The position numbers were made by a program, and so were the translations under genes. A DNA stretch of 64,000 nucleotides from assembly GCA_017454905.1 (NCBI GenBank), contig JAFTCB010000038.1, positions 18,163 to 82,162 on the forward strand, given 5' to 3'. Under the pieces are notes generated by a model. That model did not search any database and was not told the DNA's origin. It saw only the letters and a list, made by a program, of their open reading frames with translations. This stretch comes from Bacteroidales bacterium. GTDB taxonomy: Bacteria; Bacteroidota; Bacteroidia; Bacteroidales; UBA932. Shown one piece after another: positions 25,611-28,418 of the stretch (the first letter of the stretch is position 1; every line of letters begins with the position of its first letter).

Positions 25611-25904
25611 TTAGTTCTCGAATTTCTTTTCTTTGACGCGGGTGAGCTTCTCCTTCATGGCGTCCACCGCTTCGGTGATTGCGTTCTCGAAGGTGTCGGC
25701 TTCGCGCTCGATGATGAGCTCCTCGCCCGGGATGTGGATCTGGATCTTGGCCAGCTTTCCTTGTTTGAGATGGTCTTCGAGCGCCACCTCAACCTCCTCG
25801 GTCAGGCCTTCGCAGAAGCGGGCCAGACGGGAGACTTTCTTCTCGACGAAGGCGGCGAGCTGCTCGCCGGCTTCGAACTTCAGGGCCTTGAGTTTAATCT
25901 CCAT
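25611..25904 (-). CDS. hpf: Ribosome hibernation promoting factor (short HPF/YfiA family)
   Basis: 97 residues from the ATG at 25904; an ATG three codons earlier (25913) is also possible. The protein has the short HPF fold: two helices and four strands with the basic patch Lys-x-x-Arg-Leu-Ala-Arg-Phe and an acidic second strand (Glu-Val-Ala-Leu-Glu), then a Thr-x-Glu-Asn-Ala-Ile helix and a basic tail. Such factors bind the decoding centre of idle ribosomes. The long C-terminal dimerisation domain of the long HPF type is absent. It overlaps the xerC 3' end by 11 bp, so it is translationally linked to it. Confidence 0.88.
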   Translation of the reverse strand: MEIKLKALKFEAGEQLAAFVEKKVSRLARFCEGLTEEVEVALEDHLKQGKLAKIQIHIPGEELIIEREADTFENAITEAVDAMKEKLTRVKEKKFEN

Positions 25905-26997
25905 GGTTACCATCGTTTTTTGCCCGTGGATGGGCGGATTTATACACATTTTGCAGCCGCTCGATGGAATTGTGCGTGTAGACCTGGGTCGCCGCCAGGG
26001 AGCTGTGGCCGAGCAATTCCTTGATGGAATTGAGGTCTGTGCCCCCGTCCAGCAGTTCTGTCGCCAGGGTGTGGCGCAGGACGTGCGGTGACTTCCTGCC
26101 GCTGATCCCGCCGACGTGTCCGAGTGCCGCCTTGACGGCACGGTCTACGTAGACCGGATAGAGGCGCGCCCCTCGCGGGGTCTGCAGGAGCGGGGCTTCC
26201 GGGGCCTTGTCCGCGCATTTCAAAGAGTCAACCGATTGTAAATATAACAAAATTTCGTCACAAAGTGATGCCGTCAGCGGAATTTCGCGAATTTTGTCTC
26301 CTTTTCCGCGGACGCGCAGTACGCGGCGCGAGAGGTCCACGGAGTTCCGGTTCAGGGAAATCAGCTCCGCGCGGCGCAGGCCGGTGCCGTAGAGCATGCC
26401 GAGGATCATCCGCTGGAGCTGGTCTTCGTATTTGCCGTATTCGAGTACGCCTTTGGTCTGCTCGAAGTAGCTTTGCATGGCGTCTTCGCGGTAGAAGACG
26501 GGCAGGCGCTTCTCTTGTTTGGGGCGCGGGACCAGCCGGACGGGGTTGCTCTCCAGCAGGCCTTCTTTCATCAGGTATTTGCAGAAGCCGCTCAGCACGC
26601 TCAGATGCAGCCCGACCGTCTTCGCACTCTCCCCTTTCTCATCCAGGAGATGGACTTCGTACGACCGGACCATCTGAATGGACATCATTTCTGAAACGGC
26701 CGCTCCGTCCAGCGACCAACTGCCCCTGGAAACGTCTCGCTGCGCTCGACCCCACCGCTGCGCTTCGCTTGCGGTCCCCCCTCTTACGGTGCCGAGGGTG
26801 GCACGGTTTCCCGGGGCAGTTGTCGCCTTCCCTACACTGGCCGTTTCAGTCTCTTTCGCTACCATGGATTCCTTATTAGCCGCATTCTCGGGCGAGGCAA
26901 AGGCCAGGTATTCTTCCAGCACCCCGCGATAGATCTCGCAGGTCCGGGGAGAATAGCGCCGGATGGCGGAAAGATAGTTCAGGTAACGCTCGATCAT
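25894..26997 (-). CDS. xerC: Tyrosine recombinase XerC-like, with in-frame palindromic insert
   Basis: 367 residues, about 65 longer than usual. The catalytic set is complete: Arg in GTGLRRAEL, Lys in RGKGDK, His-x-x-Arg in PHVLRHT, His in LLGHSSLAATQ and the Tyr in VYTHNS. The excess lies in the N-terminal core-binding domain, residues about 50-103, where the DNA is a 159-bp palindromic element (26691-26849) read in frame as low-complexity Gly/Ala/Arg/Thr-rich sequence. The insert falls in a loop between the first and later helices, so the enzyme may still resolve chromosome dimers. XerC rather than XerD is judged by the C-terminal motif and the solitary position. It overlaps cca by 4 bp (ATGA). 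Confidence 0.85.
   Translation of the reverse strand: MIERYLNYLSAIRRYSPRTCEIYRGVLEEYLAFASPENAANKESMVAKETETASVGKATTAPGNRATLGTVRGGTASEAQRWGRAQRDVSRGSWSLDGAAVSEMMSIQMVRSYEVHLLDEKGESAKTVGLHLSVLSGFCKYLMKEGLLESNPVRLVPRPKQEKRLPVFYREDAMQSYFEQTKGVLEYGKYEDQLQRMILGMLYGTGLRRAELISLNRNSVDLSRRVLRVRGKGDKIREIPLTASLCDEILLYLQSVDSLKCADKAPEAPLLQTPRGARLYPVYVDRAVKAALGHVGGISGRKSPHVLRHTLATELLDGGTDLNSIKELLGHSSLAATQVYTHNSIERLQNVYKSAHPRAKNDGNHGD
26691..26849. repeat. 159-bp palindromic element inside xerC
   Basis: Two nested inverted-repeat arms: CTGAAACGGCC at 26691-26701 with GGCCGTTTCAG at 26839-26849, and CAACTGCCCC at 26717-26726 with GGGGCAGTTG at 26813-26822, the latter continuing into GGAAAC/GTTTCC. The centre holds two smaller hairpins (GC-rich, 26753-26774 and near 26789-26804). 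The length is 53 codons exactly and the xerC frame crosses it without a stop. No second copy is in this window, so calling it a dispersed element is inference. Confidence 0.65.
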
Positions 26998-28418
26998 ACC
27001 TCATGCAGGCCGAGCTCCGGGGCCCGCTGCCGCATATAGGCATCCGCCTCTTCGAAATTATTGCCGATCACCCCGTCCAGGATGGCCTCCTTGACCATCT
27101 CCTTGAGCTGCCCGATCTCCGAGCAGGGCGGAATGCCATAGACCTGCATCACATACTCCCCGTTGATGGGGTTCTTGAAATTGCGGATCGCATCCTTCTC
27201 CTCCACCTCCACCAGCTTGCGCTTCACCAGCTCGAAATTGGCGCGGATCCGCGCCACCTTCGCCTCATTCTTGGACGTGATGTCCGCATTGCAGAGCAGC
27301 ATCAGGTCGTCGATGTCGTCGCCGGCATCGAACAGCAGCCGCCGCACGGCGGAATCGGTCACCTCCTCGTCCACCAGCGCGATGGGCCGCAGATGCAGCC
27401 GGACGAGCTTCTGGACGTATTTCATCTCATCCAGCGGCAGGCGCAGACGATTGAAAATCTTCGGGACCATCCGGGCGCCGATCACCTCGTGGCCGTGGAA
27501 GGTCCAGCCCTGCGCGGGGTCGTAGCGTTTGCTGGCCGGCTTGCCGATGTCATGCAGGAGCGCGGCCCAGCGAAGCCAAAGATTATCAGACACCTCCGCC
27601 ACATTGGTCAGCACCGCCAAGGAATGGGCGAAATTGTCCTTGTGGCCGCGGCCGTCCACCGTCTCCACGCCCTTGAGGGCCAGCAGTTCCGGCAGGACGT
27701 ATTTCAGCAGGCCCGCCTCGTCCATCAGGGAGAAGGCCATCGCGGGCTGCGCGGTCGCGAGCATCTTGTTAAGCTCCTCCGCAATCCGCTCGCAGGAGAG
27801 GATCCTGAGCCGCTCGGCCATCCGGCGCATCGAGTCCATGGACTCGGGAACGATCGTGAAAGGATGCTCCGGCGTGGAAAGCCGGGTCGCGAAGCGCACG
27901 GCGCGCAGCATCCGGAGCGGGTCGTCGGAATAGGTCGTATCGGGATCCAGGGGCGTGCGGATGATGCCGGCATCCAGGTCGCGGATGCCGCCGAACGGGT
28001 CCACCAGGGCGCCGAAATCCTCCTTCTGCAGGGAGAAAGCCATCGCATTGATGGTGAAGTCGCGCCGCTGCTGGTCGTCCTCGAGGGTGCCGTTCTCCAC
28101 GATGGGGTTGCGGGACTCGCGGCGGTAGGACTCCTTGCGCGCCCCGACAAACTCGACCTCATCGCCCCGGTAGTGGAGCATCGCCGTCCCGAAATTCTTG
28201 AAATAGGACACGTGCTGCTTCGTCCGCTCCCCGACCGCCAGCGCGAAGTCGATCCCGCTGCCCTCCACGACGATGTCGATGTCGTTGCCGGCGCGGCCGA
28301 GGAAGCAGTCGCGCACATAGCCGCCGATCACGAAGGCGCGTACGCCCCGCGCGGCAGCGATTTCACTGACGATACGGAAGATAGGACGGTCGAGAAACTG
28401 GTCGGTTATAGTGGGCAT
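26994..28418 (-). CDS. cca: CCA tRNA nucleotidyltransferase (HD-domain type)
   Basis: 474 residues. Nucleotidyltransferase motif Gly-Gly-Tyr-Val-Arg-Asp followed by the metal-binding Asn-Asp-Ile-Asp-Ile-Val, then the Arg-Arg-Asp-Phe-Thr-Ile-Asn-Ala-Met-Ala motif and the Asp-Pro-Leu-Arg-Met-Leu-Arg-Ala-Val-Arg-Phe base-selection helix; together these separate CCA enzymes and poly(A) polymerases from other nucleotidyltransferases. A C-terminal HD domain (Leu-Leu-His-Asp-Ile-Gly-Lys) and RNA-binding tail follow. It adds or repairs the tRNA 3' CCA end. The start overlaps the HsdR_N-like gene by 13 bp and the end overlaps xerC by 4 bp, so it is in one run of coupled genes. Confidence 0.92.
   Translation of the reverse strand: MPTITDQFLDRPIFRIVSEIAAARGVRAFVIGGYVRDCFLGRAGNDIDIVVEGSGIDFALAVGERTKQHVSYFKNFGTAMLHYRGDEVEFVGARKESYRRESRNPIVENGTLEDDQQRRDFTINAMAFSLQKEDFGALVDPFGGIRDLDAGIIRTPLDPDTTYSDDPLRMLRAVRFATRLSTPEHPFTIVPESMDSMRRMAERLRILSCERIAEELNKMLATAQPAMAFSLMDEAGLLKYVLPELLALKGVETVDGRGHKDNFAHSLAVLTNVAEVSDNLWLRWAALLHDIGKPASKRYDPAQGWTFHGHEVIGARMVPKIFNRLRLPLDEMKYVQKLVRLHLRPIALVDEEVTDSAVRRLLFDAGDDIDDLMLLCNADITSKNEAKVARIRANFELVKRKLVEVEEKDAIRNFKNPINGEYVMQVYGIPPCSEIGQLKEMVKEAILDGVIGNNFEEADAYMRQRAPELGLHEV

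Follow-up and report, generated by a model that had tools for sequence, protein, structure and literature searches.

A putative mobile palindrome carried in frame in xerC and dispersed among the genomes of a Bacteroidales genus

The xerC locus

The window, which is the whole stretch of 64,000 nucleotides analysed here, contains a gene for a tyrosine recombinase, xerC, with a palindromic insert in its coding sequence (Table 1). The product matches the NCBIfam family TIGR02224 XerC at 4.1e-71 and 239.8 bits, under the family cut-off of 335. A preliminary description of this DNA, made from the sequence alone, had stated that all catalytic residues remain despite the insert. Consistent with this, the stretches TGLRRAEL, RGKGDK, HVLRH and LGHSSLAATQVYTH are all found in the protein, and we take them to be the holders of the catalytic R-K-H-R-H-Y residues. 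A frame resembling a short ribosome-hibernation (RaiA/HPF-like) protein (25611-26141, minus strand) overlaps the end of xerC. The top PDB match of the XerC protein is a 401-aa chain named RaiA, aligned over the recombinase part.

Table 1. Features of xerC and its insert, in positions of the window
Feature	Position	Strand	Evidence
xerC, 367-aa tyrosine recombinase, carries the insert	25894..26997	-	Pfam Phage_integrase 5.2e-28, Phage_int_SAM_1 5.1e-9
Whole palindromic stretch, 159 nt	26691..26849		Inverted-repeat detection and folding
Outer arm, read as xerC-native (downstream in gene), locus-specific	26691..26701		By-eye comparison with insert-free xerC L048
Multi-copy core	26719..26821	+	BLAST and covariance model R1, 104.9 bits (copy belongs to the model's training set)
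P1 helix, 5' strand, pairs with 26806-26819	26720..26733	+	Both-sided change at 14/14 pairs, alignments A1 and A4
P2 hairpin (GTC...GAC)	26734..26750	+	Paired cells 73.2% in A1, 88.6% in A4
P3 hairpin, very variable loop (ACCGC...GCGGT here)	26754..26775	+	Alignments; pairs unscored, register shifts between copies
Pseudoknot strand CCCTC	26779..26783	+	Pairs with 26794-26798
P4 hairpin; loop GAGGG (26794-26798) closes the pseudoknot	26789..26804	+	84.3% of cells paired, A4
P1 helix, 3' strand	26806..26819	+	Same covariation as 5' strand
Outer arm, read as inverted copy of native flank, locus-specific	26839..26849		By-eye comparison with L048

The insert consists of nested inverted repeats, both pairs of which were recovered where the preliminary description had placed them. 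The outer arms, CTGAAACGGCC and GGCCGTTTCAG (26691-26701 and 26839-26849), match at 11 of 11 nt, and the 17-nt inner arms (26717-26733 and 26806-26822) at 94%. Folding is strong on both strands, with z-scores of -6.5 (plus) and -5.5 (minus) against 200 dinucleotide shuffles, none of which reached as low an energy. The plus strand of the element is antisense to xerC, and the xerC frame, which includes GNRATLGTVRGG, runs through all 159 nt without a stop, as had been described. The accompanying count of 53 codons holds for this stop-free stretch, whereas the segment between conserved anchors is 55 aa longer than in an insert-free orthologue (L048, genome G014), with which the protein shares 88% identity across aa 100-286.

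Between conserved anchors, the XerC protein has 85 residues, compared with 30 in L048 and 70 in genome G081. The N-terminal SAM-like domain is split by the insert, such that Pfam covers aa 2-37 only (profile positions 1-40 of 83). The length of XerC linkers differs within the genus. Among 30 aligned XerC proteins (this one included; by eye), a palindromic insert at the linker was seen only here and in G081, where a related palindrome lies in the opposite orientation. The alignment of close relatives proposed in the preliminary description has yielded an insert-free orthologue, and among the aligned proteins no distant XerC with the same insert but no palindrome turned up. Genome G014 holds two xerC fragments, L048 without the element and L174 with it, the latter sharing 95% identity with the G120 gene across 453 nt; this may reflect strain mixture, contamination or recent transfer.

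Copy number and distribution

The preliminary description treated the 159-nt palindrome as the element. The palindrome is real, but the unit that is repeated is a core of about 103 nt, and the outer 11-nt arms do not occur in the other copies (BLAST). A search of the same genome, which had been suggested as a check, found seven copies of the inner ~100 nt by BLAST, the xerC copy included and the outer arms unmatched, and 14 copies with covariance model R1. This model is based on an alignment of 34 copies that was not fitted to the structure (A1); a further, structure-fitted alignment (A4) holds 117 copies, 116 of them distinct.

Among relatives, the single-sequence search gave matches in 22 of 61 genomes, all within the genus. 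R1 identified at least one copy in 124 of the 151 sampled genomes of the genus, with copy numbers per carrier genome ranging from 1 to at least 26. In scans with stricter filters, in which weak matches are lost, R1 matched four of 247 genomes of the order (this genome, another member of its family and two members of different families, the latter three all belonging to other genera), and this genome only in the phylum, with none in 394 others of the 395 covered. The core motif occurs in at least 120 sequence stretches, and the named carriers among the 80 listed are uncultured Bacteroidales, many of them with titles that mention a ruminant host. Viral contigs contained no exact match to the core motif, and BLAST of the core against 50,697 phage and 72,556 plasmid records found no match. 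Spread by phages or plasmids was rejected on the basis of these searches.

Structure of the core

On the plus strand of the window, the core is arranged as a P1 arm, P2, CCCC, P3, a C-/T-rich stretch to TCTTACG, P4 and the second P1 arm, with the unpaired stretches CCCC and CCTCTTAC conserved among copies. In A4, 91.8% of cells are paired versus 74.5% in shuffles, and in A1 81.9% versus 69.0%, with 0 of 500 shuffles as high in either case. Pairing is not uniform across helices: roughly one copy in three leaves two inner pairs of P2 open, and about half leave two pairs of P4 open (A4). P1 comprises 1637 cells, of which 1513 are Watson-Crick, 18 G-U, 38 A-C and 68 other. P1 arms differ from copy to copy, yet they pair within each, nearly always in Watson-Crick fashion. 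At one orthologous site (L325:624-771 versus L320:2867-2972), the P3 loop differs by a 42-nt insertion, and P3 therefore seems to be a growth point of the element.

The pseudoknot is paired in every cell of the 116 distinct copies, and both sides change at two of its five pairs (UA/GC/AU and CG/UA). By pair type, 583 of 585 cells are Watson-Crick and two G-U. That the pseudoknot is so fixed suggests that the fold has a function which template switching alone leaves unexplained. Over all 3686 scored cells, G-U pairs number 35, fewer than the 79 A-C mismatches, a scarcity more in keeping with copying or pairing as DNA than with selection acting on an RNA. Searches with 4227 Rfam families over 26400-27200 of the window and five further loci gave no match at the element, and a known RNA family was discarded on this ground.

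Host genes and reading frames

Frame analysis started from 54 of 56, 24 of 24 and 85 of 87 matches, giving 158 non-duplicate copies, 141 of them with about 620 nt on either side. Of these, 116 fall in an open frame of 200 aa or more, compared with 616 of 705 positions drawn at random from the same loci. The figure is an estimate, because the second RlmI copy and the TldD copy L180 have their longest frame on the wrong strand. Relative to the longest open frame, 70 copies have the same orientation and 46 the opposite one. The core itself is open in a mean of 3.9 of 6 frames, compared with 3.05 in dinucleotide shuffles. Among the 25 copies outside long frames, where the core is open in 3.5 of 6 frames (2.8 when shuffled), 14 are flanked by long frames that end at or near the element and the rest by one or none; disrupted genes may be among them.

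Besides XerC, the host genes of this genome encode an FAD-dependent dehydrogenase, RsmF, a SpoU-type methyltransferase, RlmI (twice), TrmB (twice), TldD, a YgiQ-type radical SAM protein and DNA polymerase I. Seven of these 11 copies fall between Pfam matches (FAD-dehydrogenase, RsmF, TldD, both TrmB copies, DNA polymerase I and RlmI site 1), while those in XerC, the SpoU enzyme, RlmI site 2 and YgiQ interrupt a Pfam profile. A twelfth copy, L162, is in a frame without a Pfam or NCBIfam match that may be spurious, and L160 and L164 are outside long frames. In-frame copies are probably translated as extra protein loops.

Many hosts are enzymes acting on RNA or DNA, including RsmF, RlmI, TrmB, the SpoU type, TruB, an IPP transferase, an RNB-domain protein, DNA polymerase I and XerC. 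Scans of gene content covered 101 of 105 host ORFs and 98 of 105 control ORFs. Enrichment of RNA-modifying enzymes among hosts is not claimed; several of the eight TldD/PmbA members come from orthologous loci that were fetched on purpose.

Occupied and empty sites

Comparison of orthologous genes revealed sites that are filled in some genomes and empty in others. For example, the FAD-dehydrogenase site is filled in G000, G081, G014 and G131 and empty in G088, G173 and G103, in which protein identity is 90-94%; G120 has a shorter, diverged palindromic insert there. RlmI site 1 carries the element in G000, G088 and G131 and lacks it in genomes including G103, G120 and G173. At RlmI site 2, copies occur in G000, G088 and G081, and the site is empty in G103, G120, G173 and G131. 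Differences between filled and empty versions of these two genes are multiples of 3. At three more sites, the BLAST gaps between filled and empty versions measure 132, 135 and 126 nt, all multiples of 3, although the 135-nt gap (L178) is at a gene border, so just two of the three speak for the frame.

This pattern of presence and absence, seen in the FAD-dehydrogenase gene, in RlmI and elsewhere, is consistent with mobility. At the species scale, gain or loss of copies is real, and we infer that the element is mobile. The idea of a family of coding-tolerant mobile palindromes, raised in the preliminary description, gains support from the many genes that carry copies and from these orthologous sites.

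Sites also differ in the orientation and identity of their occupant. Ninety copy pairs have matching flanks; seven are neighbours in one locus, and 35 of the remaining 83, which are non-independent between-genome pairs with a few cross-matches of dimer partners, show opposite orientation. At two sites common to G120 and G173, flanks are 94-95% identical and cores only 77-78%, with remnants of an older core beside the present one (by eye); at a third site, identity is 94% in the flanks and 97% in the cores. The combination of near-identical flanks, differing cores and old-core remnants indicates that some sites are re-used. Two insertions that occurred independently could likewise leave copies in opposite orientation at one site, and in-place inversion as the sole cause is doubtful given how far the cores differ between such similar flanks at some sites.

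Single copies are usual. All seven pairs of neighbours less than 100 bp apart are convergent, at most six of them independent since L194 and L314 are orthologous, while five neighbours 465-1315 bp apart follow no orientation rule. In six of the seven convergent dimers (L187, L194, L293, L314, L324 and L382), the weaker partner scores 40-58 bits versus 88-99 bits; these low-scoring partners may be a second subtype. An element-containing segment of ~970 bp is inverted between L173:9820-10787 (G014) and L189:9456-10420 (G142), with its surroundings keeping their order.

Copy-specific arms and proposed template switching

Sequence matching extends beyond the core into the flanks. In the first 30 nt outside the core, the inverted match between a copy's own left and right flanks exceeded the 95th percentile in 43 of 51 copies and the 99th in 27, the reference being mismatched flank partners from different copies. 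Since orthologous copies are among these partners, the test is conservative, although the copies are not independent. At distances of 10-70, 20-80 and 30-110 nt, 20, 6 and 2 of the 51 exceeded the 95th percentile, so the excess fades past 20-30 nt. Direct repeats in the flanks were at chance, with 5 of 51 above the 95th and 2 above the 99th percentile. The test used 53 of 56 matches, omitting the three weakest (L164, L174:8526 and L198:9651), and skipped two of the 53 for short flanks.

Individual sites, read by eye, illustrate how these arms may arise. The left flank at the FAD-dehydrogenase site is host sequence with a recognisable counterpart in the empty genomes; it differs among G000, G081 and G131, and in each of these the right flank is its complement. 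A host flank likewise looks to have been copied across the core at the TldD copy, whereas at RlmI site 1 and xerC the copying reads in the other direction. At L178, the outer arms match partially. In G081, the RlmI site that lacks the element already forms a small palindrome, which means either that excision leaves the arms behind or that insertion prefers small palindromes; the outer arms of some copies could thus have been present as small palindromes beforehand.

Template switching at inverted repeats has been described as making arms identical and inverting spacers (PMC8604942) and as creating and maintaining hairpins (PMC8794818). Copying of one flank across the element by this process explains arms that are matched and specific to each copy. 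Rewriting of the arms in place by template switching is an inference with more support than mobilisation by a Y1 enzyme.

Candidate mobilising enzymes

Co-occurrence across the genus points to one enzyme family. Y1_Tnp is present in 55 of 58 genomes with at least 10 copies, 47 of 66 with 1-9 and 8 of 27 with none (presence against presence: Fisher 2e-7, odds ratio 11, unadjusted for kinship and completeness). The corresponding counts are 17 of 58, 14 of 66 and 10 of 27 for RVT_1 (odds ratio 0.57) and 6 of 58, 15 of 66 and 9 of 27 for IS110 (odds ratio 0.41). This genome encodes three Y1 (HUH) transposase-like proteins of 286-309 aa (L008, L009 and L010), longer than the Y1 domain, two of which fall under the Pfam cut-off as whole proteins.

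The core was found beside none of 20 Y1_Tnp loci, hand-picked from copy-rich genomes with at least 14 scored copies and some ending at contig ends, nor beside the three of this genome. A REPtron arrangement was dismissed, with no core near any of these loci. A Y1 enzyme acting in trans is the most likely mover, at about even odds, as suggested by co-occurrence and not by adjacency. Some enzyme family beyond Y1, reverse transcriptases and IS110 is a possible mobiliser.

Alternative explanations

Several other explanations of the insert were weighed. XerC linkers vary in length within the genus, and a palindrome might have arisen by chance in such a fast-evolving, low-complexity region, but the 13 other copies in this genome rule this out, as copies in unrelated genes and the fold z-score of -6.5 also argue; its probability is negligible. 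A miniature element (MITE) of a classical DDE insertion sequence would share the length of ~100-160 nt, the inverted ends, the multiple copies and the lack of a gene of its own. It would also be expected to have fixed terminal inverted repeats, direct target duplications and a transposase that recognises its ends. The end arms of the element instead vary among copies while pairing within each, P1 changing on both sides at 14 of 14 pairs, and direct repeats do not exceed chance (5 and 2 of 51 above the 95th and 99th percentiles). A transposon with terminal repeats and target duplications was rejected for the latter reason, and the MITE explanation is quite improbable. A reverse transcriptase or IS110-type enzyme in place of a Y1 transposase is unlikely as the mobiliser, since the two families, present in 41 and 30 of the 151 genomes of the genus, show no positive association with the element, their odds ratios of 0.57 and 0.41 standing against 11 for Y1_Tnp.

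The remaining alternatives concern RNA. A riboswitch-like structure, ribozyme or processing signal selected on the host-gene transcript would account for the several helices, the fully paired and covarying pseudoknot and the conserved unpaired CCCC and CCTCTTAC. Against it stand the occurrence of copies both along the longest open frame (70) and opposite to it (46), the 35 G-U pairs in 3686 cells next to 79 A-C mismatches and the absence of an Rfam match for the xerC copy or the five sampled loci. Selection as a structured RNA is thus improbable, and the fold may act in the mobile intermediate itself. It is also conceivable that the insert is removed from the RNA or skipped by the ribosome and leaves the protein unchanged, as translation-skipped palindromic elements are known from yeast mitochondrial genes (PMC6649704). 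Removal would relax the constraint on open frames, on lengths in multiples of 3 and on orientation. In contrast, 116 of 141 copies are in long frames open through the element, the length difference between filled and empty sites in the FAD-dehydrogenase and RlmI genes is a multiple of 3, and both orientations occur; all three count against removal or skipping, which is very improbable.

Relation to known palindromic repeats

Rickettsia palindromic elements (RPEs) are palindromes of ~150 bp that sit in frame in many unrelated genes within a single genus (PMC10969869, PMC3733652, PMC6649704). The element resembles them as an in-frame palindrome in many unrelated genes, probably read as extra peptide and present both inside and outside genes. 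It differs in being from another phylum, with all carriers found being Bacteroidales, and in its branched, pseudoknotted core, a comparison made by description, with core searches covering its own phylum. Its arms are also kept matched in each copy, whereas RPEs are said to lose repeat identity with time (PMC6649704).

With REP, BIME and REPIN sequences and their TnpA-REP (RAYT) enzymes, the element shares dispersed palindromes, inverted dimers, in-frame copies and co-occurrence with Y1. In-frame REP copies have been reported in several species (PMC3733652, PMC6006769), and palindromic repeats of Bacteroidetes, namely CGTC repeats and subclasses 2.4 and 2.6, are reported in the same papers. 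In contrast to the single 20-40 bp hairpin of REP, the element is ~103 nt long with several helices; it is mostly intragenic, and no copy flanks the Y1 genes examined. CGTC occurs at the P1/P2 junction in many A1 copies and not at an end, where REP has GTAG/CGTC at the hairpin foot. The CGTC repeats of Bacteroidetes, or the atypical structures beside subclass 2.6 transposases, may or may not be identical with the element.

Nematomorph mitochondrial genes offer a further parallel, with perfect inverted repeats kept in concert in protein-coding sequence and template switching proposed as the cause; no dispersed core is described there in the text available (PMC6649704). Matched arm changes and spacer inversion, known from template switching at inverted repeats, are compatible with the element, although the process is known as a mutation mechanism and is not known to form part of the life cycle of a mobile element (PMC8604942, PMC8794818). 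Overall, the element works like RPE and REP, while membership in either is not claimed, as lineage, fold, length and transposase neighbourhood differ.

The family was not found in open-licence literature surveyed through titles and abstract beginnings, nor was a report of the pseudoknotted fold, the matched copy-specific arms or such prevalence in one genus. The preliminary description had considered an in-frame palindrome in a Bacteroidales recombinase gene to be unusual. In-frame palindromes outside Rickettsia were already known (PMC3733652, PMC6006769). Features that go beyond that first reading are the pseudoknot of the core, arms specific to each copy, dimers that converge, the exchange of occupants at one site and the prevalence in one genus.

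Interpretation and implications

Taken together, the insert in xerC is probably (about 0.75) one copy of a REP/RPE-like mobile palindrome that is non-autonomous and dispersed over the chromosome, with arms rewritten by template switching and a Y1 enzyme presumed to act in trans. The element would spread as folded single-stranded DNA, perhaps at replication forks, and be moved by a Y1 (HUH) transposase encoded elsewhere. Copies that break a frame would be lost, while those in tolerant places would persist and be translated. Template switching between the arms would then carry flanking host-gene sequence across the element in inverted form, so that every copy acquires matched arms of its own, and might invert the core as well. 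A fuller picture, in which this is mobile DNA adapted to genes, with a pseudoknotted single-stranded fold, HUH/Y1 activity in trans, re-occupied hot-spot sites, rewritten arms and a flipped core, is tentative and less likely than not.

In-frame palindromes are best known from Rickettsia, whereas here they occur in a species-rich Bacteroidales genus with more than 100 carrier genomes sampled. The many hosts and natural empty sites make several questions testable, including how the element moves, how often a loop is viable and whether selection or template switching keeps the arms matched. Annotation is also affected, as genes for DNA polymerase I, XerC and RNA methyltransferases contain segments derived from the element. 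If the proposed mechanism is true, one insertion would keep producing new protein loops.
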